A stretch of 59,409 nucleotides of DNA, taken from Paludibacteraceae bacterium. GTDB taxonomy: Bacteria > Bacteroidota > Bacteroidia > Bacteroidales > Paludibacteraceae. Made by a program: the position numbers and the translations under genes. Location: positions 1 through 59,409 of the forward strand of contig JAFVDD010000027.1 in assembly GCA_017478725.1 (NCBI GenBank), given 5' to 3'. The notes under the pieces are model-generated. The model had not been told where the DNA came from, ran no database searches, and saw only the letters and a program-made list of their open reading frames with translations. Below, piece by piece: positions 5,083 to 57,779 of the stretch (its first letter is position 1; the number at the start of each line of letters is the position of its first letter).

Positions 5083-6321
5083 TTATGCCAGTATTGTGAT
5101 AGCTTTTTTGAGGGCGGCGATGAAAGCGTCGATGTCGGAACGGTCGTTGTACAGACCGAAAGACACACGTACGGTGCCCGGTACGCCGAGTTCGTCAATC
5201 AGCGGTTCGGCACAGTGATGCCCCGTGCGGACAGCCACTCCCTGCTGGTCCAGCAGCGCGCCGATATCGAAAGGATGTATTAGTTGCTGCTGATGGCTGA
5301 TTTCTGATTTCTGATGGCTATATACATTGAAGCTGATGACGCCGGCTTTGGGCAGGGAGGGGGCATAGATACGGACATCTGGAATGGCGGCGAGCTGCTG
5401 CTCACAGTAGTCGGTTAAGTCACGCTCATGCGCCTCAATAGCCTCTAAACCAACCGATTGCATGTACTCGATAGCTTTGGATAAAGCATAACTGCCCACA
5501 AAATTAGGTGTGCCTGCTTCGAACTTATAGGGCAGGTCGTTGTAGGTTGTGCCTGACCAGCGGACATGGTTGATCATCTCTCCCCCACCCTCGTGCGGCG
5601 GCAACCGGTCGAGCCACTCGCGTTTGCCATAGAGCACGCCGATGCCGGTAGGGCCATACATCTTATGTCCCGAGAACGCCAGAAAATCGCAATCCAGCGC
5701 CTGTACATCCACCCGCATATGCGGAACCGACTGGGCGCCGTCAATGCATACCGGCACGCCATGGGCATGCGCAATTCGTACGATTTCATCGACAGGATTG
5801 ATGATTCCCAGCACATTGCTCACCTGTGCCACGGAGACCAGTTTGGTTTTGTCGTTCAGAAGGCTCCTAAACGCCTCTATATCGAGCGTCAGGTCATCGC
5901 GCAGGGGAATATGCCGCAGAACGGCTTTTTTGCGCTCACAGAGCATTTGCCACGGCACAATATTGGAATGGTGTTCCACGGCAGAGACGATGATTTCATC
6001 GCCCTCATGGATGCACGCTTCGCCGAAACTGAACGCGAGTGCGTTGAGGCTGTCGGTTGTACCTTTGGTAAACACGATTTCATCGGAACTTTTCGCATGG
6101 ATGAAGTCGGCAACGGTTTGTCGCGCTTCCTCATGGTGGCGCGTAGCCACTTGGCTCAGATGATGCACGCCGCGGTGGATATTGCTGTTCCAGTGAGTAT
6201 ATGCCTCAGTGATAGCGTCCAGGACGGCTTGCGGCTTCTGGCTCGTAGCCGCATTGTCGAGGTACACCAACGGACGTTTATGCACTGTTTCGCTCAATAT
6301 GGGAAAATCGGATCTGTTCAT
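5083..6321 (-). CDS. sufS: Cysteine desulfurase SufS
   Basis: A 412-residue PLP enzyme that takes sulfur from cysteine for iron-sulfur cluster assembly. Visible features: VYLDNAATSQKP at the N-terminus, AVEHHSNIVPWQ (PLP stacking His), the PLP lysine in FSGHKMYGPTGIGVLYG, and the active cysteine in RTGHHCAEPL, typical of the SufS (group II) class rather than IscS. No sufBCD or sufE lies nearby, so the partner genes must be elsewhere. An unusual loop (SHQKSEISHQQQ, residues about 334-346) is encoded by a 7-bp tandem repeat and sits between the C-terminal domain strands where other SufS proteins have a short turn. Confidence 0.93.
   Translation of the reverse strand: MNRSDFPILSETVHKRPLVYLDNAATSQKPQAVLDAITEAYTHWNSNIHRGVHHLSQVATRHHEEARQTVADFIHAKSSDEIVFTKGTTDSLNALAFSFGEACIHEGDEIIVSAVEHHSNIVPWQMLCERKKAVLRHIPLRDDLTLDIEAFRSLLNDKTKLVSVAQVSNVLGIINPVDEIVRIAHAHGVPVCIDGAQSVPHMRVDVQALDCDFLAFSGHKMYGPTGIGVLYGKREWLDRLPPHEGGGEMINHVRWSGTTYNDLPYKFEAGTPNFVGSYALSKAIEYMQSVGLEAIEAHERDLTDYCEQQLAAIPDVRIYAPSLPKAGVISFNVYSHQKSEISHQQQLIHPFDIGALLDQQGVAVRTGHHCAEPLIDELGVPGTVRVSFGLYNDRSDIDAFIAALKKAITILA
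5284..5318 (-). repeat. In-frame heptamer repeat inside sufS
   Basis: On the minus strand the units read GCCATCA, GAAATCA, GAAATCA, GCCATCA, then GCAGCAA. The repeat adds about 12 residues (SHQKSEISHQQQ) to a region that is a short turn in typical SufS proteins. Confidence 0.8.
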
Positions 6322-43760: not shown

Positions 43761-43869
43761 CTTCAGCCATCAGACTTTCGTCATGCCGCCATGTCGCGCT
43801 TGTTCGTCATTTCCATAATCATCTTGTTTTCATTGGTTTATAAATAGGTTATCGGGGTAATATCGAGTG

Positions 43870-43902
43870 AATCTCGGACGCACATCGGAGGCAACTCGGA
43901 TA
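43870..43902. repeat. Three tandem 11-bp units (ATCTCGGACG type)
   Basis: The units are aatctcggacg, cacatcggagg and caactcggata. They belong to the non-coding stretch 43761-44261, which holds this array, the CCTTTCA array and the GCCTATATCT array. I see no gene or RNA there. Confidence 0.65.
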
Positions 43903-43912
43903 AAAACATTCG

Positions 43913-43980
43913 CCTTTCACCTTTACCTTTCACCTTTACCTTTCACCTTTCACTTTTCACCTTTTACCTTTCACCTTTCA
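43913..43980. repeat. CCTTTCA/CCTTTAC tandem array
   Basis: About ten alternating 6-7-base units (cctttca, ccttta) make up 68 bases of the pckA-parE spacer. Confidence 0.85.
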
Positions 43981-44009
43981 AAAACCGCCAGCCAGCCACT
44001 TTCCGCTTT

Positions 44010-44059
44010 GCCTATATCTGCCTAAATCTGCCTATTTCTGCCTGATTAGGCCTATATAA
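44010..44059. repeat. Five tandem 10-bp units (GCCTATATCT type)
   Basis: The units are gcctatatct, gcctaaatct, gcctatttct, gcctgattag and gcctatataa, without gaps. Non-coding. Confidence 0.85.
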
Positions 44060-44261
44060 TATATACTATGCAGCCAGTGGCAGGCTTTCTTTATATAGTT
44101 TTTTTTCTTTTTGCTTCTTTTTCTTTTATGCCCTTTTCTTTCATGCGTCTTTCAGGCACATAAGCGCCAGCTGATGCAGTCCTCGCCTTTGTAGCAGCGG
44201 GCGAAATCTCGCTGTTGTGTAAAGAAGTCAAAGATTAAAATGTACAAAAGCAACAAATAGA

Positions 44262-44293
44262 TTTGCGTATGTCGTTTTTTTTTTGTAATTTTG
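44262..44293 (+). promoter_or_regulatory. Promoter of parE
   Basis: TTTG (44262-44265, followed by CGTATG), 20 bases, TAATTTTG (44286-44293). The ATG is 24 bases from the -7 box, so the leader is very short. The 500 bases upstream are repeats. Confidence 0.82.
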
Positions 44294-44316
44294 CAGCGAA
44301 AATAGATTGGCGTACT

Positions 44317-46296
44317 ATGGCTGAACAAGACGAACTGAATAACAATGCCGTTTCATACGGCGATGAGAACATTATCCACCTTGATGATATGGAACACATC
44401 CGGCGTCGTCCGGGTATGTATATCGGCAAACTGGGTGACGGCAGTCACTCGGACGACGGAATCTATGTGCTCATCAAAGAGAGCATCGACAACTCGATTG
44501 ACGAGTTCCGAATGGGTGAAGGCAAAGTGATAGAGGTAGAGATCAGCAGTCAGCCAAGTCAGACCTGCGTCAGCGGTCAGGAAGCAGAAGCCGGTCATCA
44601 GATGGTACGCGTGCGTGACTACGGACGCGGTATTCCGTTGGGCAAGTTGGTGGATGTAGTGTCGATGCTCAACACAGGCGGCAAGTACGACAGCAAAGCC
44701 TTCAAGAAATCCGTGGGTTTGAATGGTGTGGGAACGAAAGCCGTGAACGCCTTGTCGAGCTATTTCTCCGTACAATCATTCCGCGAAGGCAAAATGCGCA
44801 AAGCGGAGTTCGCCCAAGGCAAACTGACGTCCGACACGGGTATTCAAGACTACAATGGCACCGAACGCCGAGGCACGATTATCGAGTTTGTGCCGGACAA
44901 CAGCAAAGGTCTGTTTGAGAACTATCATTTCCGCGATGACTATATCGAAGAACTGTTACGCAACTACGCCTATCTCAACACCGGTCTGACGCTGGTATAT
45001 ACAAGCCATCAGAATTCAGCCGTCAGAAGTCAGAAATTTGTCAGCAAAAACGGTCTCTTGGACCTGCTGACGGAGAATATGACCGTGGAGCCGCTTTATC
45101 CGATTATTCATCTGAAAGGCGAGGATATCGAGATAGCCCTGACCCATACCGACCAGAACAGTGACGAGTATTTCTCCTTTGTCAACGGTCAGCATACCAT
45201 ACAGGGCGGTACGCACCAGACGGCTTACCGTGAGGCGATAGGCCGCACTATCAAAGAGTTCTTCAACAAGAATCAAGACTTGGCGGACATCCGTAACGGC
45301 GTCGTCGGCGCCATTGCCATCAATGTGGAGGAGCCTGTGTTCGAGAGCCAGACAAAGGTCAAACTCGGATCGAAAGACATGAGTCCGACTGGCGGCGTGA
45401 GCGTCAACAAGTTCGTCAATGATTTCGTGAAGCAACAGCTGGACAACTACCTGCACAAACACCCCGAGATCACCGAGGTGATGCTGCAGAAGATACAGGA
45501 CAGCGAGAAAGAGCGCAAAGCCATAGCCGGTGTGACCAAAGCGGCACGCGAGAGGGCGAAAAAGAACCTGGTGAACAACCCCAAGCTCCGCGATTGCCAG
45601 ATTCACCTCAATGACCCCAAACCGGTCAAGTCCGCCAAAGATGCAGACGACGATTTGCGGCTGGAGAGCAGTATCTTTATTACGGAGGGTTTGTCGGCAT
45701 CGGGAAGTATCACCAAGAGCCGCGACGTTAGGACACAGGCGGTGTTCTCGCTACGAGGCAAACCGCTCAACAGCTACGGGCTCAGCAAATCCGTGGTGTA
45801 TGAGAACGAGGAATTCAATTGCCTGCAGTCGGCACTCAATATAGAGGATGGGCTGGATGAGCTCAGGTACAACAAAGTAATCATTGCCACCGATGCGGAT
45901 GTCGATGGTATGCATATACGTCTGCTGATGCTCACTTTCTTCCTGCAGTTCTTCCCCGATCTGGTGAAGAAAGGGCATGTATATATTCTGCAGACGCCGT
46001 TGTTCCGTGTGAAGGACAAGACCCAGACGCGCTATTGCTACAGCGAAGAGGAACGGCTGGCGGCTATCGAGGCTATCAAGACCCCGGAGATCACCCGATT
46101 CAAAGGATTGGGCGAGATATCGCCCGACGAGTTCAAGGGCTTTATAGGTGACGGTATTCGTCTGGATCAGGTCAAACTGCGCAAAGAGGACAGCGTGAAC
46201 GAGTTGCTGGCTTTCTATATGGGCAAGAACACCAACGAGCGTCAGAATTTCATCATTGACAATCTGGTGATAGAGGAAGACGCCGTGGAGGAGTAA
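44317..46296 (+). CDS. parE: DNA topoisomerase IV subunit B
   Basis: A 659-residue GHKL ATPase subunit that separates linked daughter chromosomes with Par[39 protein letters not shown] (shown in part; ATP lid and catalytic Glu), [52 protein letters not shown] and [12 protein letters not shown] identify it; ParE rather than GyrB by the IGKLGDG form. Two insertions, [18 protein letters not shown] (residues about 77-95) and HQNSAVRSQ (230-240), are encoded by repeat elements inside the ATPase domain. Start at ATG 44317. parC is not in the window. Confidence 0.95.
44549..44580 (+). repeat. In-frame GTCAGACCTGCGTCAGC element in parE
   Basis: Reads GTCAGCCAA, GTCAGACCTGC, GTCAGCG, GTCAG. The 17-base core at 44558-44574 is identical to that in the GH30 and phosphorylase genes. 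Encodes [11 protein letters not shown] before the conserved [10 protein letters not shown]. Confidence 0.88.
45005..45039 (+). repeat. In-frame heptamer repeat in parE
   Basis: Units GCCATCA, GAATTCA, GCCGTCA, GAAGTCA and GAAATTT. They encode [12 protein letters not shown] between LTLVY and [10 protein letters not shown], which are nearly adjacent in typical ParE. Confidence 0.82.
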
Positions 46297-46309
46297 TGGC
46301 GAAAGGCGC

Positions 46310-46726
46310 ATGTTACCGCTGATTTTATTCATAGTATTAGGCGTTGTAGTGCTGGTGCTGACGGAAATCCGTGAGCGCCGGAAAAAGGGCGCAGCACCGC
46401 TACTGAGCCGGCCTGAGGGGTGCTGCGGCGAGCATCTGGTATGTGAACGTGAGACGCTGTTGCAGACTAATGCCGAGCCGGAGTATTACGACGACGAAGA
46501 ACTGGATGCCCTGGCTGGTATCGCCCCTGAGGCATATACCGGAAGCCAGCACGACGCTATTGCGCAGGTATTCAACTCGCTGCAAGAGAGCGATGTACCG
46601 GGGTGGTGCCGTAGTTTGCAACTGCGGCATATAGAGTTGCCTGCTGATATCAGGGAGGAGGCATTACTGATTGTAAGAGAGCGGCGCGCCAATCAAGCAC
46701 CTATACCCCAAACCCTTAGCCATTAA
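46310..46726 (+). CDS. Small membrane-anchored protein of Bacteroidales (function unknown)
   Basis: A 138-residue protein with one N-terminal helix (MLPLILFIVLGVVVLVLTEI), then a cysteine motif GCCGEHLVCE, an acidic YYDDEELDALAG and WCRSLQLRHIELP near the end. I recall similar Bacteroidales proteins being labelled phospholipase, but no lipase motif is visible and the function is unknown. It lies 13 bases after parE and 18 before mrp. The C-terminus APIPQTLSH and stop run into an AACCATT repeat. Confidence 0.7.
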   Translation: MLPLILFIVLGVVVLVLTEIRERRKKGAAPLLSRPEGCCGEHLVCERETLLQTNAEPEYYDDEELDALAGIAPEAYTGSQHDAIAQVFNSLQESDVPGWCRSLQLRHIELPADIREEALLIVRERRANQAPIPQTLSH

Positions 46727-46741
46727 CCATTAACCATTATA
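46721..46741 (+). repeat. AACCATT heptamer repeat before mrp
   Basis: AGCCATT, AACCATT, AACCATT. The array carries the stop of the small membrane-protein gene and ends four bases before the GTG start of mrp. Confidence 0.75.
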
Positions 46742-46744
46742 ATC

Positions 46745-47815
46745 GTGTATCCCCAACAAATCATAGATGCATTGCGCCATGTGCGCTATCCGGGCACAGG
46801 CAGCGACCTGATAGAGAGCGGTATGCTGGAAGACGATATCCGCATATCGGGTTTCGAGGTGTCGTTTTCGCTCATTTTCCCCAAAGAGAATGACCCGTTC
46901 ATGAAATCGGTAATGAAAGCAGCCGAGGTGGCGTTGCAAACCTACGTTGATCCGAATATAGTTGCGAAGATTCATGTGAAGTTTGTCAAACAGCCGTCAG
47001 CTGTCAGCAAGGTCAGATCTGCGTCAGTTATCCATGCCAAGCATATGATAGCGATACACAGCGGCAAGGGCGGAGTAGGCAAATCGACCGTGACCGCCAA
47101 TTTGGCGGTGGCTTTGGCGGAGAAAGGCTATCGGGTAGGTTTGCTGGACGCAGATATACACGGCCCGTCTATCCCCAAGATGTTTCATTGCGAGGATGCT
47201 CGTCCGTATTCGGTAGAGGAAGACGGTCGCACGTTGATTGAGCCGATTGAGCAATACGGAGTCAAGATATTGTCAATAGGCTTTTTCGTCAATCCCGAGA
47301 GCGCGGTGATATGGCGGGGAGGCATGGCCGGCAATGCGCTCAAACAGCTGATAGAAGATGCTCATTGGGGAGAGTTGGATTATTTCCTGATTGACCTGCC
47401 TCCCGGCACGAGCGATATTCATCTGACATTGATAGCCGAGCTGCAGTTGACGGGTGCGATAGTGGTTACTACTCCGCAACCGGTGGCATTGGCAGACGCG
47501 CGCAAGGGGGTGGAGATGTTCCGCAACGAGAAAGTGAATGTACCTATTCTCGGGTTGGTGGAGAATATGGCATGGTTTACGCCTGCGGAGTTGCCTCAGA
47601 ACAAGTATTATATCTTTGGCAAGGACGGCGGCAAAGCGCTGGCAGAGGAACTGAATATCCCCTTGCTGGGACAGATTCCGCTGGTGCAATCCATCCGCGA
47701 GGGCGGCGACGAAGGCGTGCCTGTCGCGTTGCAGGCCGGACACCCTGCGGCCTTGGCGTTTGAGAAGATAGCCGGGCTGTTAATGAACTCGCCTACTAGT
47801 CAACTAGCTAACTAG
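46745..47815 (+). CDS. mrp: Mrp/ApbC-type iron-sulfur carrier P-loop ATPase
   Basis: A 356-residue protein with an N-terminal MIP18/DUF59 domain (IIDALRHVRYPGTGSDLIESGML) and the Mrp ATPase: deviant Walker A IAIHSGKGGVGKSTVTANLA, LLDADIHGPSIPKMF, and FLIDLPPGTSDIHLTL. It moves iron-sulfur clusters to target proteins. Starts with GTG at 46745. The linker between the domains (KQPSAVSKVRSASV, about residues 82-96) is encoded by a GTCAG-type repeat element. The C-terminus (SPTSQLAN) and stop are encoded by an ACTAG octamer repeat. Confidence 0.93.
   Translation: MYPQQIIDALRHVRYPGTGSDLIESGMLEDDIRISGFEVSFSLIFPKENDPFMKSVMKAAEVALQTYVDPNIVAKIHVKFVKQPSAVSKVRSASVIHAKHMIAIHSGKGGVGKSTVTANLAVALAEKGYRVGLLDADIHGPSIPKMFHCEDARPYSVEEDGRTLIEPIEQYGVKILSIGFFVNPESAVIWRGGMAGNALKQLIEDAHWGELDYFLIDLPPGTSDIHLTLIAELQLTGAIVVTTPQPVALADARKGVEMFRNEKVNVPILGLVENMAWFTPAELPQNKYYIFGKDGGKALAEELNIPLLGQIPLVQSIREGGDEGVPVALQAGHPAALAFEKIAGLLMNSPTSQLAN
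46996..47029 (+). repeat. In-frame GTCAG-type element in mrp
   Basis: Reads GTCAGCT, GTCAGCAAG, GTCAGATCTGC, GTCAGTT: the parE/GH30 core with one change (C to T). Here it is read in a different frame, giving VRSAS. Confidence 0.85.
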
Positions 47816-47829
47816 CCAACTAGTTAATA
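47796..47829 (+). repeat. ACTAGNNA octamer repeat at the mrp end
   Basis: ACTAGTCA, ACTAGCTA, ACTAGCCA and ACTAGTTA follow one another. The first units encode the tail of Mrp and its TAG stop; the array ends six bases before the MATE start codon. Confidence 0.85.
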
Positions 47830-47834
47830 AAACA

Positions 47835-49226
47835 ATGAATGCTACCACCGAACTGGGAACTGCTCCGGTGCACCATCTGCTCTGGAAGTACGCGTTGCCC
47901 GCCATCATCGCGATGACGGCCAGTTCGCTGTATAATATAGTGGATAGTATCTATATCGGCCACGGAGTAGGCGCATTGGCGTTAGGTGCGCTGACGGTAG
48001 CCAAACCGTTTATGGATATCTGTGCCGCGTTCGGCAGCCTGGTAGGCGTAGGTGCTTCATCGCTGCTGGCGATCTATTTGGGTGAACGCGATTATGAGAA
48101 AGCCAATCGTGTACTGGGCAATGTGATCGTGCTCAATATTATCCTGTCGGCTATCGTGATGATGGTGGGGCTGGTATGGATAGAGCCTATTCTGTATGCG
48201 TTCGGCGCAAGCGAGGCTACTATTGTCTATGCGCGTGAGTATATGGAAATAATATTGTACGGCAATATCCTGACTCATATTTATTTCGGCTTGAACAGTA
48301 TGCTTCGCTCAGCCGGTCATCCGCGGTTCTCGATGACGGCAACGATAGTGGCAGTAGGTATCAATATTGTGCTGGATCCGATCTTCATTTTCGGTTTCGG
48401 TATGGGAGTTCGCGGAGCGGCATTGGCTACGGTGATCAGCCAGGCCGTAGCTGTAGTATGGCAGCTGACTCGATTCATGGACAAGAGCGAATTAGTCCGA
48501 TTCCATCGGGGAATTTGGGTGCTGGATAGGAATATCACCAAGCGTGCATTGGCTATTGGCATGGCGCCGTTTTTATACAATATTGCCCATTGTTTTGTAG
48601 TAATCATCATCAACAACCAATTGAAGCGGTACGGCGGCGATTTAGCGATAGCGTCGTATGGTGTGATCAACCGTATGACGTTTGTGTTTGCCATGATGGT
48701 AATGGGCTTGAATCAGGGCATGCAGCCGATAGCGGGTTTCAACTACGGCGCCAAGCAGTACCACCGGATGCTCAGGTCGTTTTATCTGACCAGTCTGTAT
48801 GCCACTATCGTGATGGGAATGGTGTTTGTGTTAGGCGAGTGTATTCCCGAGCAGGTGACGAGGCTGTTCACGCATGACCCGGACTTGATAGCCGGTACGG
48901 TTACGCCGATGCGAATTATTTGCAGTTCGATGCTGGTAGTGGGATTTCAGATGGTGACGGGCAACCTGTTCACCTCGATCGGAATGGCGGGCAAATCGAT
49001 TTTTCTGAGCCTTACGAGGCAAGTGCTGTATCTGATACCTCTTCTGCTGGTTATCCCCTCGCTGTTTGCGGAGCCGTTGGACGGCGTATGGTGGTCGATA
49101 CCCATCAGCGATCTGATGGCTGCGGTGACAGCAGCAGTGATGTTGTGGATTCAGATCGGTCAGTTCCACCGCTTGATAAAAGAACAGGAGGCGTGGATCA
49201 CCTCCACACCTCCCGAGCCGGACTGA
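47835..49226 (+). CDS. MATE-family multidrug/toxin efflux transporter
   Basis: A 463-residue protein with twelve predicted helices, sodium- or proton-driven export of cationic compounds. Family features: PAIIAMTASSLYNIVDSIYIGHGVG, the loop YGNILTHIYFGLNSMLRSAGHPRFSM, and its second-half counterpart VMGLNQGMQPIAGFNYGAK. The substrate is unknown. It lies 19 bases after mrp and converges with the GH81 gene, 14 bases away, without a visible terminator. Confidence 0.92.
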   Translation: MNATTELGTAPVHHLLWKYALPAIIAMTASSLYNIVDSIYIGHGVGALALGALTVAKPFMDICAAFGSLVGVGASSLLAIYLGERDYEKANRVLGNVIVLNIILSAIVMMVGLVWIEPILYAFGASEATIVYAREYMEIILYGNILTHIYFGLNSMLRSAGHPRFSMTATIVAVGINIVLDPIFIFGFGMGVRGAALATVISQAVAVVWQLTRFMDKSELVRFHRGIWVLDRNITKRALAIGMAPFLYNIAHCFVVIIINNQLKRYGGDLAIASYGVINRMTFVFAMMVMGLNQGMQPIAGFNYGAKQYHRMLRSFYLTSLYATIVMGMVFVLGECIPEQVTRLFTHDPDLIAGTVTPMRIICSSMLVVGFQMVTGNLFTSIGMAGKSIFLSLTRQVLYLIPLLLVIPSLFAEPLDGVWWSIPISDLMAAVTAAVMLWIQIGQFHRLIKEQEAWITSTPPEPD

Positions 49227-49240
49227 TGACCGTTCAGCCG

Positions 49241-52200
49241 TCACTTTCGGGCGCGCATGAACACAACACCGCCAATAGTATAGACACTGCCGTCAAGCGA
49301 TATGCAGAGTTGCCCGTTCCGGATAAATTTGATAGCTTTCGGGCTATTGGTTTCCGCTTTGATTTCCGTTTCCGCGATAGCTGTCTCCGAATCGTTGCAC
49401 CGGCCGGAGCCATACACTTCCAATTCGTAGAGCGATGAGCCGTAGTTGGTTACTCTTTTGTGGCAAACCAACCGGACGTAGCGGGCACTATGATCAGCAA
49501 GGGGTATCACCACCTTGCCTCCGTTGCCGGTAGTGGTGGCATAGACAGACTCATACGTTTCTGCATCCGAACTAAGCAGTACTTCATAGGCGGTAGCATA
49601 AGCAGCCTCCCAATAGATACGCATCGAGTCCAATAGATAACATTGCGCCAAGTCCACTTCCAGCCACTCATCATCCTGGAACCTGCTCGACCAACGTGTA
49701 TCCATGTCGCCATCTACTGCTTTGGCGGCGGTTGTGCCATCGTTTTCGCTACCCGAAGCCGTGGCCGCTTTGCCCAGCGCCAGATTGACGTCGCTATAAG
49801 CCTTGACATGAGCCACTGCTGTAGCCGTCTGCGCGTAGCAATCGAAGGTGAGCGTGGTGTCGCCTACCTGTGTTGCGCGAAAATCAAAACGGCAGGTGTC
49901 GGTGGCTGTTCCGAACTGGTTGATCGGGCATACCACAAACAGCTGGGTGTCGCCGACAGGTATGGTCACTTCGGCCGGATAGACTACTACGGAATCCACT
50001 TGCTCGGTTTCCAATACAACAAAAGTAAGCGAAGCCGAACAGTCGCCTACTGTCCGCGTCTCGGTAAAAAGACCATAGTCGGGATAGGTAAGCCGCTCGT
50101 TGGTAGCAGAGAGCACTTCGCCATTGTAGTTATACGCAGTAGTGGTCAGGATGGTCGATTGCCCCTGATAGAGCACGGTATCGGATGCCGAAAGAGCCAC
50201 TGCGAACACATGGGCAGGATCACCGGAAACAGGGCGGCCGTAGGCTTCCAGTTCGTAAAGCGAAGTGCCGTAAGCAGTAGCACGCTGCATACCTGTGAGA
50301 CGGATATACCGGGCTCTTGTATTGGAGATTTGTGATTGGTAATGGGTAATTGGAACTTGCTCTACGCCCCCCGCAGAGGAGAGGGTGAGGGTACGCCAAG
50401 TGACCTTGTCATCACTCAACGCCAGTTCGTACTCAGACGCATAAGCTGTTTCCCAACGTAGTACAAGATGGTCGATATAGCATACCTGCTGCAAATCTAC
50501 CGTCACATATTCGCCGTCCTTGTGCGCCGAGCCCCAGCGGGTAGCAACATCGCCGTCGGTGAGATTAGAAGCTAAGCATCCTGCGTTCTCTTCTGAGGAG
50601 GCTGTCACCGGTTTATGGAGCGCCAGATTCGGGTACGGCAGATCCCACGCCAGCGGGTCTTTTTCTATCTCTTGTTGCTCGTCCTCGATAGTAGTTACCG
50701 TTTGCGTCCGGGTTGAGCCTATCAGCGTCAGTCCGTGCGGCACACTGACTGTCGTATCCACGGCACCGAAAAAATGCACCTTCAACGCCCCTGTACCTAC
50801 GTTATACACCGCATAGGTGTTCCGGCCGTTGACGGTGTCCGTATAAGCGCATGCCAGAGGATAGTTGGCATACACATCATACCGTTTTTCACCCAATGCT
50901 TTATGCGAATGGATAAGCCAATAGGTGATACCACCCGTGTCAGGGTTCTTCGCCAATGGTTTGCCCATGGCGTCCATTCTATCCCATACACGTGCAGCCG
51001 AGTCGGCGTCAAAGAGCGCCAGATACGACAAGCACACATTGCCCAAGCCCGATTCGTCGCCCAATCCTCCGGTGGCTGCTTCGTAATTGCCCACCTCCTT
51101 GGACGCATACATCTGTGTATAATCCCATCGCGTGAAGGAGAGGTCTTCGCAGAAATGGTTGGTGAGGATAGGTGAGATAGGCAACCATTGGATAGAGTGC
51201 ATCCACACAGGATCACCGCTGAACCAAGTCCACCAGCCTACGCCTTGCATGGTCAGGTTGCAGCAATAAGGGTGTTGGTATTTGGTGTAGTCAATATTCC
51301 GCCTTTTGCGGTCAAACCAGTACTCCGCTGCGGCGCGTGTCTCCAGCGTATAGCCCATGATTCCCGCTTCCAGCATCTCTTGGTCCTGTAGCGCCGCGCC
51401 TAACATCCATACGCCGCCCCAGCCTTGAATGGCTTCCGAGGTGGACTCTTGCCCGTTGCCGTTTCCTTCATTACCCAAACCGCCTGCGAACGAATGACCA
51501 CAATAGGGATCGAGTGTTCTGAACCACGGCTCATCCGCTGAACGCTCCCAGTTAGCATAATCGCGTGCTACCTCACGCGCCATCTGACCGTATTGTGCCC
51601 GAAAATCATCGTCTAAGAGACAAAGAATAGCCGAGGCATAAACGAAATAGCCGTAATGGAAATGATGGTCATTGAAGGTATCGGAGTCGTACGAAGTGTC
51701 AAAACCGATGAGTGCACCCCATCGCGGATAGCGGGCAAAATAGAACCGCTCTTCACCGGGGGTATAGGTGTACCAGTTGACGAGTGTCTCTTTCAGCCGT
51801 TGCTTCGCCATGCGGAAGGTAGCCGTGTCGCCCATCTGCAGTGCAAACGTCATGTAATGCGCCATCTGCGTCAGACCCTTGCCGCCCCAGTAGGTATCGC
51901 CGCCGAATGTGCCGCGTTTGGCATAGTCAGCGTTCAGTTCGGCCATGCGTTCCGCTGAGAACCCGTCCGCCCACTCCACCGGAGCCGGGAAGAAAGGCAG
52001 AAAACCATGCACGGGATAGGTGAAGGTTACATCCTGACATTCCCAAACACGCATCTGCCCGCGCGGAGTCATATAGGTAGGAAGATTCTGAGGCAATAGG
52101 GCTTCGCCTCTATATTCCGCATCGTAATAATGATGCGGCAGAAAACCCATCAGCACGGCTTGATCCACATGAAACGTAGTAGCGAGCGAAGAGGTGTTCG

Positions 52201-52936
52201 CATCGTAGTGATAATCCATCCGTGTCTTGCGCGGGATGCGGAAAGCGTACGGAGTAACAGCCTCAGCCTCCAAACCCTCTGTAAGCAAAGCGATGCTCAT
52301 TTGAGAGGTATTGGAGAAGACTGCATATTTGGTTGCATCGGGATTGGAAGCATTCATCGTGATTCCCTGTGCCTCGATCCATACGAGAGGCGAGCCGTGC
52401 ATACAAGTCACACGCACCCATGCTTCACCATCCTGCATGATAAACGACATGGCGAAATCCGACCAACTATCTATCAGCGTTTCGCGGAAGTCGGCTTTCT
52501 TGCCGGTAGCCGTGTTGGTAAAAGTGACCGTAAGCGGTGTATCCCATTTCATCTCGCAGCCCGTAGGTTCCCAATAAGTAGGATATCCTATGTTCAGTTC
52601 GCCGTCTTTGGCTTCCGCCCATCCAGGATAAAACCATATCTTGCCCGTCCATGTGTTCACCAATCCGTAAGTCCACCAGTCGTTGGTAGGCAAAGCCAAC
52701 GTACCTTGTTTCGAACCATTGGCAGTCCCTAAACGCGTTAATAATGAATCGGGTAAGTAGAGCCGGCGATGCTCCATCTGGTAAGCTTGGCTGCCCCAGT
52801 GCTCGGAGGTACGGCTCGCACTCAAAGGTGCGAACGAGGCATACGATCCTGCACCTACAGCCACAGGCTGCTGTGCGCACAAAAGAGTACTGACCGCTAT
52901 CGCGGACAGAGTACAGACTACAGACCGAAGATGCAT
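49241..52936 (-). CDS. Secreted GH81 endo-beta-1,3-glucanase with two F5/8C carbohydrate-binding domains
   Basis: A 1231-residue secreted enzyme (signal peptide MHLRSVVCTLSAIAVSTLLC). The catalytic region (about 30-720) has the GH81 pattern FNDHHFHYGYFVYASAIL (residue about 420, catalytic Asp) and GNGQESTSEAIQGWGGVWML (about 495, catalytic Glu). Two F5/8 type C (CBM32-like) domains follow (about 770-900 and 1050-1172), each NLALxKxxTAS...RWxS...YELEVYG. A final tail, KFIRNGQLCISLDGSVYTI, resembles the C-terminal sorting signals of type IX secretion. The first binding domain has a repeat-encoded insert absent from the second. Last gene of the beta-glucan operon. Confidence 0.88.
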   Translation of the reverse strand: MHLRSVVCTLSAIAVSTLLCAQQPVAVGAGSYASFAPLSASRTSEHWGSQAYQMEHRRLYLPDSLLTRLGTANGSKQGTLALPTNDWWTYGLVNTWTGKIWFYPGWAEAKDGELNIGYPTYWEPTGCEMKWDTPLTVTFTNTATGKKADFRETLIDSWSDFAMSFIMQDGEAWVRVTCMHGSPLVWIEAQGITMNASNPDATKYAVFSNTSQMSIALLTEGLEAEAVTPYAFRIPRKTRMDYHYDANTSSLATTFHVDQAVLMGFLPHHYYDAEYRGEALLPQNLPTYMTPRGQMRVWECQDVTFTYPVHGFLPFFPAPVEWADGFSAERMAELNADYAKRGTFGGDTYWGGKGLTQMAHYMTFALQMGDTATFRMAKQRLKETLVNWYTYTPGEERFYFARYPRWGALIGFDTSYDSDTFNDHHFHYGYFVYASAILCLLDDDFRAQYGQMAREVARDYANWERSADEPWFRTLDPYCGHSFAGGLGNEGNGNGQESTSEAIQGWGGVWMLGAALQDQEMLEAGIMGYTLETRAAAEYWFDRKRRNIDYTKYQHPYCCNLTMQGVGWWTWFSGDPVWMHSIQWLPISPILTNHFCEDLSFTRWDYTQMYASKEVGNYEAATGGLGDESGLGNVCLSYLALFDADSAARVWDRMDAMGKPLAKNPDTGGITYWLIHSHKALGEKRYDVYANYPLACAYTDTVNGRNTYAVYNVGTGALKVHFFGAVDTTVSVPHGLTLIGSTRTQTVTTIEDEQQEIEKDPLAWDLPYPNLALHKPVTASSEENAGCLASNLTDGDVATRWGSAHKDGEYVTVDLQQVCYIDHLVLRWETAYASEYELALSDDKVTWRTLTLSSAGGVEQVPITHYQSQISNTRARYIRLTGMQRATAYGTSLYELEAYGRPVSGDPAHVFAVALSASDTVLYQGQSTILTTTAYNYNGEVLSATNERLTYPDYGLFTETRTVGDCSASLTFVVLETEQVDSVVVYPAEVTIPVGDTQLFVVCPINQFGTATDTCRFDFRATQVGDTTLTFDCYAQTATAVAHVKAYSDVNLALGKAATASGSENDGTTAAKAVDGDMDTRWSSRFQDDEWLEVDLAQCYLLDSMRIYWEAAYATAYEVLLSSDAETYESVYATTTGNGGKVVIPLADHSARYVRLVCHKRVTNYGSSLYELEVYGSGRCNDSETAIAETEIKAETNSPKAIKFIRNGQLCISLDGSVYTIGGVVFMRARK
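50318..50352 (-). repeat. In-frame CAATTAC-type heptamer repeat in the first F5/8C domain
   Basis: Minus-strand units CAATTAC, CCATTAC, CAATCAC, AAATCTC and CAATACA. They encode ITHYQSQISNT, inserted before ARYIRL; the sister domain lacks it. Confidence 0.85.
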
Positions 52937-52940
52937 AGTG

Positions 52941-54581
52941 TTATAGTTTTACGATTATTGTTTCTATGCTGTTGGCCGGCATTTTCACTGTAGCCGCATA
53001 CTCGCCTATCTGCAATGGAAACTCCGTCGCTTCGCCGGTATTGAGTATGTTGACTGCTATCTCACCTTTCGCATTCTGCGTAGCGCAGAGGTGTATCTGA
53101 TCGCTGACGCAGGTCTGACCTGGCTGATTGCTGACACCTAACACTACATCACCGGGACGCATCGAGCGGCTGAACTGCTTGAGCACGTGGTAATAGGGTG
53201 TGAAATAGAGTATATCGTTGCGATAATCGACCATGAGCATGGCACCGCAGTGATTAAACACGTGGGTTGGTCCGCCGATAGAGTCGAGCACAGCGTTCCA
53301 GTCGATATAGCCGGTGAGCCAGTGGTTGAGTCCGTCGATGATATAGGAGGCATAGCGGTGGGTGACGGCATACTTGGGATGCCACTCGGGCCACCAGGGC
53401 GTGGAGTAAGCCCAGTCGGTAGCGTTGGGTTGCCACCAGAAGTTGTCGTTATTGAACCAGCAGCACTCTTTGTAGCCCTCGTAGTCGCTTACACCCGGCC
53501 ATCCGTCTCGTCCCAGATTGTCCACACATCCCTCGGTATGGAGGAGGCGTTTGTCAGGGTGCGCAGCGTGCAAGGAGTCCAGCACATCAGGGAAACAACT
53601 GACGGAGCTGCCGTACCAGTGCAGAGCCGTTCCGGCCGTGTAGGCGTTCGCCTGCTCATCGCCATAGACAGCGGCGGTATAAGGCGCAGCCTCAAAGGTG
53701 TTCTGGTCGAAACAGAGTATCTTGACGTCGCCGAAGCCGTTGGCCGCCATTTGCGGGCCAAGGTATTGCCCGATGATCTCAGCTTCCTGCGCCGGCGAGA
53801 CGTGCATGGACTCCCAGCTGCCGTCATTACCCATTGGTTCATTCTCCGGCGTGACAGCCCAGAACTCGATGCCTGCGTCGCGATAGGCCTGCAGGTACTT
53901 GATGTAGTATCGCGCAAAAGCGTCATAGTATTCCGGCAGCAAAGCTCCGCCGTAACGTTTTTTCTTGTCAAAGAACTGCTTGTTGTCCTTCATCCACGCC
54001 GGCGCCGTCCAAGGCGATGCTACTATTCGCCATTCCTTGTCGTTCTGCGAAGCTTTGACAGCCGCTATCTCGTGGATGCACTGCCACACATCAAACGTCT
54101 CGTCTTTGATTTGCGGATACTCGTCTTTGCTAAAACCGTCCTGATGCACCGCCATCGAGAAATGCTCCAATGCGTCATCGCCTGCCACATCATCATAGGA
54201 ATAGTGCCCCTTGACTGTAAAATCGCTCGACCCCACTACCGTGCGGCTCGCTGAGAAATTGGCACCGTTTTCGCCGTACATCTCCGTGAGTACCGCATGG
54301 CGTTGTTCGGGCGTGAGGCATGCCAGCACAAAGACCGAACTCTCGGTGATGGAGTTGCCGAAGCCGTCAATCGTCTGGCGTCGGTCGTTGAGGTCAACGA
54401 CATAGGCTGCATCTGACAGCTGACGGCTGGCACAGGTCTGACCTTTCTGGAATACGACAGCTTCTTTCTCGGCGCACTTGTCGCCTGCCTCGGAGGTGAG
54501 CCATACATGCGTGGAGGGCACTTTGGCGGTGCATGAACAAATGAGTACGCAACTCAGGATACTGATGACTGACTTTTTCAT
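52941..54581 (-). CDS. GH30-family beta-glucanase/glucosidase lipoprotein
   Basis: A 546-residue (beta/alpha)8 glycosidase with the lipoprotein signal MKKSVISILSCVLICSC. QTIDGFGNSITESSVFVL, ASPWTAPAWMKDN, the acid/base Glu in TPENEPMGND (about 245) and the nucleophile in LLHTEGCVDN (about 350) identify GH30; the C-terminal beta domain ends EYAATVKMPANSIETIIVKL. With GH81 next door, activity on beta-1,6 or beta-1,3 glucan is likely (inference). Two repeat elements insert KGQTCASRQLSDA near the N-terminus and NQPGQTCVSDQ in the beta domain. It overlaps the phosphorylase gene by one base (TAATG). Confidence 0.9.
   Translation of the reverse strand: MKKSVISILSCVLICSCTAKVPSTHVWLTSEAGDKCAEKEAVVFQKGQTCASRQLSDAAYVVDLNDRRQTIDGFGNSITESSVFVLACLTPEQRHAVLTEMYGENGANFSASRTVVGSSDFTVKGHYSYDDVAGDDALEHFSMAVHQDGFSKDEYPQIKDETFDVWQCIHEIAAVKASQNDKEWRIVASPWTAPAWMKDNKQFFDKKKRYGGALLPEYYDAFARYYIKYLQAYRDAGIEFWAVTPENEPMGNDGSWESMHVSPAQEAEIIGQYLGPQMAANGFGDVKILCFDQNTFEAAPYTAAVYGDEQANAYTAGTALHWYGSSVSCFPDVLDSLHAAHPDKRLLHTEGCVDNLGRDGWPGVSDYEGYKECCWFNNDNFWWQPNATDWAYSTPWWPEWHPKYAVTHRYASYIIDGLNHWLTGYIDWNAVLDSIGGPTHVFNHCGAMLMVDYRNDILYFTPYYHVLKQFSRSMRPGDVVLGVSNQPGQTCVSDQIHLCATQNAKGEIAVNILNTGEATEFPLQIGEYAATVKMPANSIETIIVKL
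53098..53135 (-). repeat. In-frame GTCAGACCTGCGTCAGC element, GH30 C-terminal region
   Basis: Minus strand: GTCAGCA, ATCAGCCAG, GTCAGACCTGC, GTCAGCG, ATC. Core at 53103-53119. Encodes SNQPGQTCVSDQ. Confidence 0.88.
54414..54445 (-). repeat. In-frame GTCAGACCTG-type element, GH30 N-terminal region
   Basis: Minus strand: AAG GTCAGACCTGT GCCAGCC GTCAGCT GTCAGA. Encodes KGQTCASRQLSDA just before the conserved start of the catalytic domain. Confidence 0.82.
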
Positions 54582-57500
54582 TATAGTTCTACGATTATTT
54601 GTTTGACCTCGCCGTCACGGGCGAAAATATGTTGACTTTGCTCTTTGCTCAGCGTTAAAGCTGACGCAGGTCTGACCTTGCTGAGGGCTGACTTCTTATA
54701 CACTACCTCCGTGCCGCAATAGGTGAATCGCAACTCGCCGTCGCGGAAATCGCCGTCTGTCAGCATCGTCGGGCAGAAACAGATCTGTCCGTCCTTCACG
54801 CTCACGCCCAACTCGAACCAGCGGTTCAATATATCTTCCTTCACCTGTCCGGTCATACCCGGCTGCTGTACGCCGGCCATGGACGGTGTATGTGAATAGG
54901 GGTCGAAGGGGAACGAGCCATACTCGTTCGGCTGTTTGTGGCTGCCAAGTCCCTCGCGGATGGCAAAATAGTGTTCGTGCAAACGATGCAAGGCTGACGA
55001 CTGACAGCTGACAGCGGAATGCTCTATCACTTCTCCTACAGCCAGCAGCAGTTTGCTTACCATGTGCCAGTAGATGCAGCCGAGTCCTTCGTATTTGTAG
55101 AACGTGCCGCTGCGGCCGGTGAAAGCATGGTGGTGGAAAACGGACTCATAGATATCCGCCAACTCGTCCGGCAGACCGGCTGCATTGCGGTACCGGGCGT
55201 TGAAATGATAGCCTCCTTGGTCGTCGCGCGTGAGGTAGCCTTCTTTCACCCATTCCTCCCCTTTTTCCGCTATCGCCGGGCAGTCGGGTATATTGTTCAT
55301 CTCCAGGAAAGCGGCTCTCCGTCTGTTGGGGTAGAGCATATAGCTGCGCTGGTCGTCGCGGTAGAGCGCCGATGCGCGCATAGCGTCCAGCAAACCGACG
55401 GCTTCTTCGGCACTCAGCAGTCCCGAACTGAGCACTGCCACTTGACCCTCAAGCATCTCATACAGGTGCGATACCTCGATACCGTTCTGCGTGAAGCGTA
55501 TCAGGTTGTATGCCTCATAGAGCCCGTCCTCGCGTTTGTTCATACGAATCGTCTCGTCTATCTTGTGCAGCGTAGCTGACAGGAAATCCTGCAGTTCCGC
55601 TATCTCCAGCGTCTCTGTGTTGCCGCTCAGTCCGGCATAGACTTTGGTGCGGTAGCGTTCGCCTATAGTGCCTACTATGTTCATGAACTGCCGCGGGTTG
55701 CCGTTGGTATAGGCATTGCGGATGCCCCGCAGCATCTCAAAGGTCTCCTCGCCGATAGTTACATCGGTGGTGATCAGCTGTTGCAAGAAGGCTACATAAC
55801 GGCGCATATAGCACAGCGTCACCATGGACGCGCCGTAGCCTACCAGCGCATTGTTGGCATCGTTCCATTCGGGACGCAGCGTGTTCATCCATATACCTGC
55901 TCCTGGGATGAAATTGCTCAGTTTGGCGAGCAGGGTGATCAGCAGCTTGTCCGCCATCGTGGTGTGCAGCACTTGGCCGTTTTGATCCAGCACCAGTTTG
56001 CCGTCTGCGCCCATCTCTTTCACCAGCTCCATCGCACGCTTGTGCGCCTCGTCGTCAAACCGGATACTGTTCTTCGGGTCGGCTACTATCTCCTGATAAC
56101 TCTTTATCCGGTAAGGCACGTTCGCAAACGCAAAAACACGCCGGTTGAGCAATGTTTTCAGCGCCTCGGGTGCATGGTTGTAACTCAGTTCCAACAGTTT
56201 CAGCAGGTAGATAATCTGATGGTCACCCCAATATCCGATATTACTCCACGGGTTCTCAGGCTCTATCACCTCCCAGTCGATACCCTTGTCGGTGATGCGG
56301 TAGGGGTTGTAGCCGTCAGCCGTCGTGGCATTGAGGAACTTGGCGATAATATGGTTGATATACAGCGGATAGGAGAAGGACAGTGCTTCCCAGTTCTGGA
56401 AGATGTCCCGCCAGTTGCCTTGATAAGCTACCACGGGCTTGCCCTCTTCGTCCTGCACGCGGATGTCAAACAGGTTCCACGGCCGCGAAGGATCGCCGTG
56501 GCGGCGACCGAACGTCAGCGGCAGGTACTCCATCTGATGTCTGATGTCATCCGCCTTCGTACATTGTACATCGTCCCTTCGTATTTCCTTCGGCGGGTAC
56601 TCCAGATAATATCCTCCACGCATGGTATTGAACAGCACATTGGCAAAATGGCGTGCGTCATTGGCCTCATCACCCGTGTGTTGCACGCCGTCGTTCTGCG
56701 CCACGATAGCCCGTAGCGTTTCGGTGGACTGGCGCATGGCCGCCTCTATCTGCTCTACTGCATCCGCTTGCCCCATAAACTGCATCAACCGGCGCACCTG
56801 TACGGCGTCCTGACTCACATCCGCTACGTTGTACCATGTACGCGAACTGCGAACCGCCAAATGCAGACGGGCATGTGCCAGAAAGGCACCGCGCACACCC
56901 TTCGATTCGCTTTGCGCCGCCAACTGATTGCCTTTGGCAAACGCGCTCAGCACCTGCGAGGAAACAAAGAACTGCGTTTCCTCAGGCAACCCGAGGGCAT
57001 ACACCGTATTGCATCTCAGCGACTCGCTCGGCTCGGCACGATCCACCAGAATAGCTTCCATCCGGAACAACGCCAAGCCGTTTCCTGCCAGCTCCGTCTT
57101 CTTGTAGCCGTCCACCAAGGTGGAAAATTCGTTCTGTGTCTTGCGCTCCACGCCTGCCGGCAGCACATTCTGCAATCCGTCCAAAACCTCTACATCTGTC
57201 TCGAAATTGCCTAAATTCTCCAATGTCGCCCTGCGTACCCAGCCGTGCTTGCCTGCCGGTGCCCAGATATAGGAGAAACGCAGTTTGAGCGTGTGGTTCT
57301 CCTCGCAGAAGACGATGCGGTTGCCTACGGTCGATTTGGCTATCCGGCGCGAGATCACAAAACTGTCCTGCTGTTGCTCCGAGAAAGGTCTCCATAGCAA
57401 CTCACCGTTCACCTGAAACGGCTCGCCCTTGACGCGGATGATTGTTTTCGGCCCTGTCGTCTCATAGTTCTCTGTGATCTTGTCGTCCGTGTAATAGGGA

Positions 57501-57673
57501 AAAAGTGCTTCGCCGGGGCTTCTGCGGCCTGCCGTCAGACCGCCCGTTGAACTCAGATACATCCATAAATCCGTGTCCGATGCCAGCGAGATGAAAAACG
57601 GCTGCATCTCATCATAGTTGGCGATCTCATAGAAACGCTCACCATTTATCGTGATAAATTGTCCTTGTACCAT
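54581..57673 (-). CDS. GH94/GH149/GH161-like glycoside phosphorylase
   Basis: A 1030-residue cytoplasmic protein (no signal peptide). It has an N-terminal beta-sandwich (MVQGQFITINGERFYEIANY) and a large alpha-barrel part with GNWRDIFQNWEALSFSYPLY, PWSNIGYWGDHQIIYLLKLL and the likely general-acid Asp in LRPEWNDANNALVGYG (about 602). This pattern fits the inverting phosphorylases of clan GH-Q; length and operon context favour a beta-1,3-glucan phosphorylase of the GH149 or GH161 kind over cellobiose phosphorylase, but I cannot settle the family by eye. It would split imported oligosaccharides with phosphate to glucose-1-phosphate. Two repeat insertions are present (about 886-893, 994-1004). 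Confidence 0.75.
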   Translation of the reverse strand: MVQGQFITINGERFYEIANYDEMQPFFISLASDTDLWMYLSSTGGLTAGRRSPGEALFPYYTDDKITENYETTGPKTIIRVKGEPFQVNGELLWRPFSEQQQDSFVISRRIAKSTVGNRIVFCEENHTLKLRFSYIWAPAGKHGWVRRATLENLGNFETDVEVLDGLQNVLPAGVERKTQNEFSTLVDGYKKTELAGNGLALFRMEAILVDRAEPSESLRCNTVYALGLPEETQFFVSSQVLSAFAKGNQLAAQSESKGVRGAFLAHARLHLAVRSSRTWYNVADVSQDAVQVRRLMQFMGQADAVEQIEAAMRQSTETLRAIVAQNDGVQHTGDEANDARHFANVLFNTMRGGYYLEYPPKEIRRDDVQCTKADDIRHQMEYLPLTFGRRHGDPSRPWNLFDIRVQDEEGKPVVAYQGNWRDIFQNWEALSFSYPLYINHIIAKFLNATTADGYNPYRITDKGIDWEVIEPENPWSNIGYWGDHQIIYLLKLLELSYNHAPEALKTLLNRRVFAFANVPYRIKSYQEIVADPKNSIRFDDEAHKRAMELVKEMGADGKLVLDQNGQVLHTTMADKLLITLLAKLSNFIPGAGIWMNTLRPEWNDANNALVGYGASMVTLCYMRRYVAFLQQLITTDVTIGEETFEMLRGIRNAYTNGNPRQFMNIVGTIGERYRTKVYAGLSGNTETLEIAELQDFLSATLHKIDETIRMNKREDGLYEAYNLIRFTQNGIEVSHLYEMLEGQVAVLSSGLLSAEEAVGLLDAMRASALYRDDQRSYMLYPNRRRAAFLEMNNIPDCPAIAEKGEEWVKEGYLTRDDQGGYHFNARYRNAAGLPDELADIYESVFHHHAFTGRSGTFYKYEGLGCIYWHMVSKLLLAVGEVIEHSAVSCQSSALHRLHEHYFAIREGLGSHKQPNEYGSFPFDPYSHTPSMAGVQQPGMTGQVKEDILNRWFELGVSVKDGQICFCPTMLTDGDFRDGELRFTYCGTEVVYKKSALSKVRPASALTLSKEQSQHIFARDGEVKQIIVEL
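54660..54692 (-). repeat. In-frame GTCAGACCTGCGTCAGC element, phosphorylase C-terminal region
   Basis: Minus strand: GTCAGCC, CTCAGCAAG, GTCAGACCTGC, GTCAGC. Encodes SALSKVRPASA, the same frame as in mrp. Confidence 0.88.
54995..55015 (-). repeat. In-frame GCTGTCA heptamer repeat in the phosphorylase gene
   Basis: Minus strand: GCTGTCA, GCTGTCA, GTCGTCA. Encodes SAVSCQSS in a loop. Confidence 0.75.
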
Positions 57674-57698
57674 ATATGATTGCTTTCTACTTTCGTCC

Positions 57699-57779
57699 TT
57701 TTTCGAACAATATGTTCAAATATAAAACGTTAGTTGTTCTTAGTGATTCTTAGTGATTTTTAGTGATTGTCAGGGGCAT
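57699..57779 (-). repeat. 81-bp dispersed repeat, copy 2
   Basis: Partner of 1450-1530, same orientation. On the minus strand four 10-bp units (AATCACTAAA, AATCACTAAG, AATCACTAAG, AACAACTAAC) are followed by GTTTT and a perfect GAACA-N3-TGTTC palindrome. It starts at the stop codon of the GPH symporter gene and fills the gap to the phosphorylase gene. Confidence 0.87.

Follow-up and report, generated by a model that had tools for sequence, protein, structure and literature searches.

The window, by which we mean the whole stretch of 59,409 nucleotides that was analysed, carries parE, mrp, a GH30 gene and a phosphorylase gene of family GH149 (NF058639). Each of these genes contains a short segment built from tandem words of seven bases (heptamers) and a common core. 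The core is the 13-bp piece AGGTCAGACCTGC, an odd palindrome (CAGGTC-A-GACCTG) that stands in register between heptamer words, here mostly RTCAGCN. Two patterns were used to search for it: the 17-mer GTCAGACCTGCGTCAGC, and the palindromic 12-mer AGGTCAGACCTG at the centre of that 17-mer. The features are:

5289 to 5319, minus strand: coding heptamer array RTCAGNN (read as SHQKSEISHQQ) in a 412-aa ORF, from the array scan.
43909 to 43980, no strand assigned: non-coding heptamer array TTTCACC upstream of parE, 10.6 units by TRF.
44539 to 44604, plus strand: ParE beta-hairpin loop with heptamer words and the core (17-mer at 44558-44574; 12-mer with one change).
45001 to 45033, plus strand: second ParE insertion of NTCAGNN heptamers, 11 aa, a gain of 8 aa seen in this sequence alone among 30 genus sequences.
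46711 to 46739, no strand assigned: heptamer array AACCATT just upstream of the mrp ORF, from the array scan.
46991 to 47028, plus strand: Mrp linker array, GTCAGC words followed by the core (one change in the 12-mer, two in the 17-mer).
53096 to 53135, minus strand: GH30 site 2, GTCAGCA ATCAGCC AGGTCAGACCTGC GTCAGCG ATCAGA, a gain of 2 to 5 aa.
54413 to 54446, minus strand: GH30 site 1, an exact 12-mer core followed by GTCAGCT GTCAG, a gain of 7 aa relative to 11 of 14 relatives.
54660 to 54691, minus strand: C-terminal loop of the GH149 phosphorylase, TCAGCC CTCAGCA AGGTCAGACCTGC GTCAGC, with an exact 17-mer.
54994 to 55015, minus strand: second GH149 heptamer array (read as AVSCQSSA), in a loop whose length varies among relatives, from the array scan.

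Allowing up to three mismatches, the 17-mer has five copies in the window where 0.15 are expected, and none of 100 shuffles reached five. Three copies are exact (44558-44574 on the plus strand, 53103-53119 and 54660-54676 on the minus strand) and two carry two changes (47012-47028, plus strand, in mrp; 54426-54442, minus strand, in GH30). A sequence-only reading of the window had named these five places, and all five are real; it had counted a single change in mrp where the 17-mer has two, and its shorter GH30 copy belongs at 54426-54442. In the window the 12-mer is exact only in the three minus-strand copies. The parE form is AAGTCAGACCTG and the mrp form AGGTCAGATCTG, each one change away from AGGTCAGACCTG. 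As that reading had proposed, the 17-mer has no stop codon in any sense frame (VRPAS, SDLRQ, QTCVS), while two antisense frames are stopped. It had also read SQTCVS in both parE and GH30, which has to be amended for GH30, whose copies read GQTCVS and GQTCAS.

The family extends beyond the window. Across the assembly of the same genome (2.16 Mb, 84% complete), a search of the kind the sequence-only reading had suggested returned 30 matches to the 17-mer at up to three mismatches, against 7 for the reversed pattern. The 12-mer has 14 exact copies against 0 for the reversed control, and 48 matches against 3 at one mismatch; the one-change form TGGTCAGACCTG alone occurs five times. Together with the window count, these numbers bear out the claim that a repeat family is present and is not a product of chance. 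On two contigs of this genome (C23:109076 and C52:56345; loci L037 and L044) the core comes directly after a T-run resembling an intrinsic terminator, and the joint TTTTTTTTGCCAGGTCAGACCTGCATCGGC is identical in both. A search of positions 43800-57700 against Rfam gave no match to a known structured RNA at gathering score.

We asked how the same protein positions look in relatives. For ParE the comparison covers 30 of 71 matching genomes, those with the best scores. In 18 of these 30 genus sequences (the sequence of the window is counted in the 30) a turn of 6 aa precedes VRVRDYG, against a loop of 22 aa in our genome; the loop is expanded in 12 of 30, to between 15 and 37 residues. The second ParE insertion stands opposite YNGKKF of the relatives. 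Expanded loops hold other short words: GTCRAAA (L081), GTCGAAA (L084 and L104), GGCGAAN (L087), GGACAAA (L088) and, in L082 and L083, a word of eight bases. In our array scan a segment counts if 12 or more of 14 positions match at the lag tested, or 11 or more in a loop; we chose both thresholds ourselves. At lag 7, 4 of 29 ParE loops pass (L105 was left out as a 334-aa artefact of pattern matching). Our own loop scores 9 of 14, under the threshold of 11, and the core interrupts its array. The loop of L106 holds a hairpin-like insert rather than heptamers.

A ParE tree built without the loop requires at least eight changes between expanded and short states (gain and loss undirected), four of them forced by well supported branches. 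The loop states are no more clustered than shuffled labels (90 of 500 shuffles were as low); 15 of 27 inner branches are weak. The parE genes of G059 (L082) and G018 (L083) share an identical run of 89 bp over the loop and just downstream of it, with 84.5% identity before the run, 88.6% after it and no identical run longer than 44 bp elsewhere. The ParE of G064 (L097), 96% identical to L082, has the short turn and no array. Hence a short patch covering the ParE loop seems, from this pattern of identity, to have been exchanged between species, in either direction.

GH30 was compared over the best-scoring 15 of 40 genomes (the sequence of L165 is truncated). At site 1, the three relatives out of 14 that do not show the full gain of 7 aa are still shorter, by 3 to 6 aa. 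The gain at site 2 holds against 12 of the 13 relatives read there; the thirteenth (L166) has an insert of its own nearby. At ParE and at GH30 alike we looked for relatives without the repeat that nevertheless carry the inserted residues, which the sequence-only reading had named as the result that would make the segments ancestral protein, and found none among the sequences compared. That the copies are ancestral protein sequence or chance similarity is therefore refuted for ParE and GH30. As a general account it could draw on the 12-mer matches in relatives that lack repeat flanks (13 of the 33 inspected), but it also has to face the exact copies in our genome against none for the control, and we regard it as extremely improbable.

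Mrp is a different case. The linker before its P-loop is present in 30 of 30 sequences (best-scoring 30 of 70 genomes), and our 22 aa lie inside the relatives' range of 20-29 aa. The mrp copy had been taken for an insertion as well; with no net gain, that claim falls, and a test by presence or absence does not apply to mrp because the linker exists in every sequence compared. What varies is the filling: 12 of 30 linkers pass the lag-7 test, and their words differ, while none of 506 control segments taken from these genes passes. Our linker reaches 10 of 14, below the threshold of 11. The linkers of L112, L120 and L139 carry hairpin-like inserts (for example CCCCCTCC...GGAGGGG) in place of heptamers. 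Such inserts in sister loops may belong to another element family that uses the same loops. An 8/16-bp repeat ACTAGCCAACTAGCTA (window 47795-47827) contains the stop codon of mrp, and the Mrp of L135 stops in a heptamer run, so repeats may also set C-terminal ends.

In the GH149 phosphorylase (best-scoring 15 of 36 genomes) our C-terminal loop is 2 aa longer than the modal loop of 13 aa, and four of nine modal loops are themselves heptamer arrays. The lag-7 test is passed by 6 of 15 loops against 1% of controls; ours scores 8 of 14, under the threshold of 11. Several relatives fill the loop with words but no core (an RTCAGCC array in L175, CCGTAAC in L173, CACCCTG in L178, GTCGAAA in L183), and in L179 and L180 it is a short turn. 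The core stands at the same site in our genome and in L154 (UBA3653), in differing frames. This pair, two species rather than a strain series, lies one 7-bp word apart before the core and 4 bp apart after it.

Further genes contain filled and empty versions of a loop. Going by motifs, we take them to be RluD-like, CBS-domain-like, exonuclease-like and MurD-like. The RluD-like protein of our genome (L031) is 23 residues longer than L197, the CBS-domain-like protein of G004 (L333) 12 residues longer than that of G015 (L266), and the exonuclease-like protein of G015 (L315) 7 residues longer than L304. In our alignment of the MurD-like protein the 13-bp core of G015 (L317) stands for one 7-bp unit of G002 (L281), which adds 6 bp and keeps the frame. 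For several other core-bearing genes there was no homologue among the loci retrieved. In the genes compared, the arrays sit where homologues vary in length or sequence.

To describe the core itself we aligned 42 exact 12-mers from six genomes, 14 from our own and 28 from others; some of them are orthologous pairs, and a few lack repeat flanks. What is conserved is RTCAGC(C/A) AGGTCAGACCTG C RTCAG, a unit of about 24 bp of which 13 are palindromic; in both directions information has dropped to near 0 at a distance of about 20 bp. The constancy of the core is partly by construction, because the copies were found by exact search, and one-change forms exist. Inside ORFs lie 22 sense copies (10, 8 and 4 in the three frames) and one antisense copy near an ORF edge; 19 lie outside ORFs. 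The sense bias of the genic copies (22 of 23) would be explained by a sense strand open in three frames and an antisense strand stopped in two. The sequence-only reading had placed all copies in frame on the coding strand, which is true of the five in the window; the family as a whole is not confined to genes.

The anatomy bears on two further explanations. In one, a small palindromic transposable element, of the MITE or Rickettsia-palindromic-element type, inserts into genes as a unit. In-frame genic copies in three frames, the empty sites in relatives and the palindromic core would all fit. But there are no constant flanks past the core and its neighbouring words, those words vary with the species, and in the MurD-like L317 the core replaces a heptamer unit. 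Where filled and empty loops could be paired, the flanks are too diverged to read a target duplication, and the only palindrome is the inner one of 13 bp. As for a transposase, we searched for the Y1_Tnp family, which matched in 0 of 8 genus genomes (incomplete assemblies) and in 9 of 12 outgroups; mobilisation by RAYT, as for REP sequences, was rejected on the same counts. Taken together, a palindromic element is very unlikely. In the other explanation the core is a functional site for protein binding or recombination whose places are selected. One observation speaks for it, that the core is common to two otherwise unrelated repeat modules. Yet more than half of the exact copies (23 of 42) are genic, with the 22 sense ones spread over all three frames, and no genome searched has more than 14 exact copies, so that we hold a functional site to be highly improbable.

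The second of these modules came to light in the wider genus. The exact 12-mer occurs in 20 of 72 other genus members, which together hold 35 copies and never more than 5 in one genome; the control pattern occurs in 9, with 10 copies. Of 47 order outgroups, 7 have the 12-mer and 6 the control. The excess therefore lies in our genome and a few relatives. An exact scan of an 84,980-species collection with CAGCMAGGTCAGACCTGCRTCAG gave 17 stretches, all labelled Paludibacteraceae or Bacteroidales bacterium (records of our own genome were possibly excluded). They come from Paludibacteraceae RGIG5934, RGIG1110 and RGIG7921 (sheep, cattle and water-buffalo forestomach) and from Bacteroidales bacterium UBA3742 and UBA3653, five genomes that hold 28 exact 12-mers against 0 for the control. 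The match in RGIG7921 has the contig coordinates of the one in genus member G044, which suggests that the genus of the window belongs among these labelled genomes. We inspected 33 of the 35 genus matches: 10 have AANAGC flanks, one has RTCAGC on both sides and one on one side, 8 adjoin a hairpin module and 13 have no recognisable heptamers. Three of the matches without repeat flanks (L076, L324, L330) resemble, by eye, DNA coding for leucine-rich repeats.

The hairpin module is a second repeat family sharing the core. In several species the 12-mer comes after the hairpin-like sequence CACCGCTTTTTTACGCTGTCGGTG, with small variants (L069, L077, L243, L320, L322, L326, L328, L332), and in some loci TTTAACGTCAGTGAGTGACG follows. 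Because this intergenic module is unrelated to the arrays and holds no heptamers, the core may act in its own right. Copies in RGIG5934 and UBA3742 form a longer mosaic: a small inverted repeat GGTGCTTCCGAGCACTCCG often comes next, and after it, at some loci, GAATGCTGA words (L140, L143, L144, L153, L237, L248, L258, L259, L264).

The 7-bp period is a property of whole genomes. ORFs were called by a greedy method of our own, and the genomes are partly metagenome-assembled. Lag-7 arrays in coding sequence number 78 per Mb in our genome and 198, 74, 45 and 70 per Mb in G015, G002, G062 and G067 (220-259 kb each). Over 20 genus samples the density is 60 per Mb, and there are none in the 283 kb of coding sequence from 20 order outgroups (a sample of 315 kb in all, five genomes giving less than 12 kb each). 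Lags 5, 10 and 13 give 0 to 3 per Mb in genus coding sequence. Lag 8 is also raised in coding sequence (21 in our genome and 19 in the genus against 7 in the order), and lags 14 and 21 are raised in part because of lag 7. Outside ORFs, lag 11 is raised in the genus samples (25 segments in 20 stretches of 400 kb in total), distinct from the heptamers.

We then permuted synonymous codons within ORFs, keeping the protein (20 shuffles). In the order of genomes given above, the observed lag-7 counts of 19, 38, 14, 9 and 10 fell to means of 0.9, 1.5, 2.0, 0.7 and 0.7, and the largest count in any shuffle was 6. Codon permutation removes most lag-7 arrays, and the period is therefore a property of the DNA and not of the protein. 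As in known heptanucleotide repeats, a tandem 7-bp unit occurs above chance. The segments of the window, which we read as recent, belong to a family of degenerate tandem arrays with a 7-bp unit that runs through the genus, in coding and non-coding DNA alike.

Each genome uses several heptamer words, and the words differ between species. In our genome 9 of 164 pairs of arrays at separate loci share an identical coding word, against 9 of 1501 pairs between species; in G015 the figures are 46 of 797 and 16 of 2337. Pairs are not independent, and separate loci are those on different stretches or more than 1 kb apart. The excess within a genome is weak in G002 and G067 and missing in G062, which leaves two of five species in which separate loci of one genome clearly have more words in common than loci of different species do. 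Two word classes, defined after the data had been seen, illustrate this. Tandem RTCAGC words occur at 19 loci in our genome and at 1 in G015; tandem AANAGCY words occur at 0 and 23. Counted in 100-bp bins, the numbers are 22 and 1 for RTCAGC and 0 and 29 for AANAGCY (Fisher p ~1e-13). The core follows the local vocabulary. RTCAG-type or RTCGG-type words lie no more than 12 bp away from 12 of the 14 copies in our genome, and in G120 to G122 RTCAG words accompany nearly every copy. All 5 copies in G015 are flanked by AANAGC words, which also flank copies in G004, G035, G012 and G031 (with G015, 10 of 33 copies). The core is common across species, the flanking words are not.

Hence the claim that core and flanks are copies of one composite element cannot be kept: sister loops hold heptamers without a core, and the core changes its flanks with the species. 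The unit is a heptamer array plus a 13-bp core, which was not inserted whole.

Could slippage within each loop be enough? Arrays would then grow from the loop's own sequence, and shared words would reflect mutation bias or selection on residues. In most genomes heptanucleotides are reported to be the most abundant class of long simple repeats, and polymerase slippage has been proposed as their source (Mrazek 2007, as cited in the excerpts of PMC4679880 and PMC4692102); moreover, three of our five species show little or no sharing of words within the genome. Against this stand the species-specific words at separate loci in our genome and in G015, and a 13-bp core at many different sites in six genomes, which needs copying between loci. 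By itself slippage does not carry one word to several separate places, and we infer ectopic copying. An origin by local slippage only is quite unlikely.

Our preferred reading, to which we give a probability of about one half, is that heptamer arrays are born by slippage, spread and homogenised by short-patch copying and tolerated in loops, with the core hitchhiking. Replication slippage in steps of 7 bp would create the arrays and change their length. Array DNA would then be copied between loci, by ectopic short-patch conversion or by template switching at microhomology, with the heptamers themselves serving as homology. Such copying, sometimes between species, would homogenise each genome to its own words and carry the core along. 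Selection would retain those copies that stay in frame, have sense words free of stops and lie in loops tolerant of change. Slippage would account for the 7-bp period, and short-patch copying for words common to several loci and for a core dispersed over many different sites. Several observations go against this reading. Some species pairs keep an array unchanged, word sharing within a genome is weak or missing in three of five species, and our own ParE, Mrp and GH149 loops stay below the lag-7 threshold, as do most of the ParE loops compared. The core is also found apart from heptamers, in the hairpin module.

A copying process may, more specifically, rewrite loops throughout the genome with the words of the species, keep the copies in concert and join them through the constant 13-bp core, be it through a dedicated enzyme or through unusually active short-patch conversion; we put this forward tentatively and think it rather doubtful. 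Narrower still is the idea of a dedicated machine, a template-directed polymerase or a recombinase recognising AGGTCAGACCTGC, that writes or copies arrays, the words reflecting its template. Exact cores beside different words in different species, the joining of the core to the module CACCGCTTTTTTACGCTGTCGGTG and one word common to many separate loci are what such a machine would leave behind. A single genome uses several words, however, and among the candidates checked (Y1_Tnp, RVT_1) no dedicated enzyme was identified. Besides the distribution of Y1_Tnp given above, RVT_1 matched in 5 of 8 genus and 5 of 12 outgroup genomes. A reverse transcriptase as driver was rejected because G067, G014 and G028 are without RVT_1, yet G067 has its 70 arrays per Mb. 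A dedicated machine is thus unlikely. Loss of mismatch repair was also tried and rejected, as MutS_V matched in 20 of 20 genomes.

Heptamer repeats in bacteria have so far been counted mostly outside genes, as far as the excerpts of PMC4679880 and PMC4692102 go. In the gut-bacterial genus of the window they occupy loops in one housekeeping protein after another, ParE and Mrp among them. The words vary by species, the 7-bp period stays, and a common core marks copying between loci. This offers a natural experiment on why the unit has seven bases, on how repeats are homogenised across a bacterial genome and on how new protein segments originate. It is also a practical warning, since heptamer-filled loops can mislead alignments. 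Among the matches listed in a search of the open-access literature, none describes heptamer arrays within loops of Bacteroidales proteins.

The heptamer repeats of Calothrix are named STRR. We know of no occupancy of coding loops and no shared core among them, and we set them apart here by description rather than by sequence. Three of their words are mentioned in the excerpt of PMC4692102, and like the repeats described here they form arrays of several words.

The sequence-only reading had compared the family with the palindromic elements of Rickettsia. The comparison fits in outcome: in-frame insertion in unrelated genes, apparently tolerated by the protein, is described there (excerpt of PMC10969869), and we find in-frame insertions absent from homologues, though not at mrp. 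It fails in anatomy, as those elements are palindromic units of about 150 bp, and we find no such unit with constant ends but a 13-bp core and heptamers without a fixed outer boundary.

Closer relatives are the dispersed heptanucleotide repeats. Those of the TAACTGA type are found in Beggiatoaceae, Cyanobacteria and five Bacteroidetes, with two sets in Paludibacter propionicigenes; their copies are mostly intergenic, and copies in ORFs lie mainly at protein ends or in hypothetical proteins (PMC4679880, in excerpt). They share with our arrays the tandem 7-bp unit, the dispersal, the often short length, the presence of some copies in ORFs and a proposed origin by slippage. They differ in following one word with others mixed in, according to the same excerpt, whereas we see many species-specific words, internal loops of conserved proteins and a common 13-bp core. 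The GGGNATC heptamers of Xanthomonas and Nostoc are likewise dispersed and variable in copy number, but they are G-rich, form quadruplexes and are under-represented in coding DNA (PMC4692102, in excerpt). Heptamer repeats are thus already known; coding arrays with species-specific words and one common core look new.
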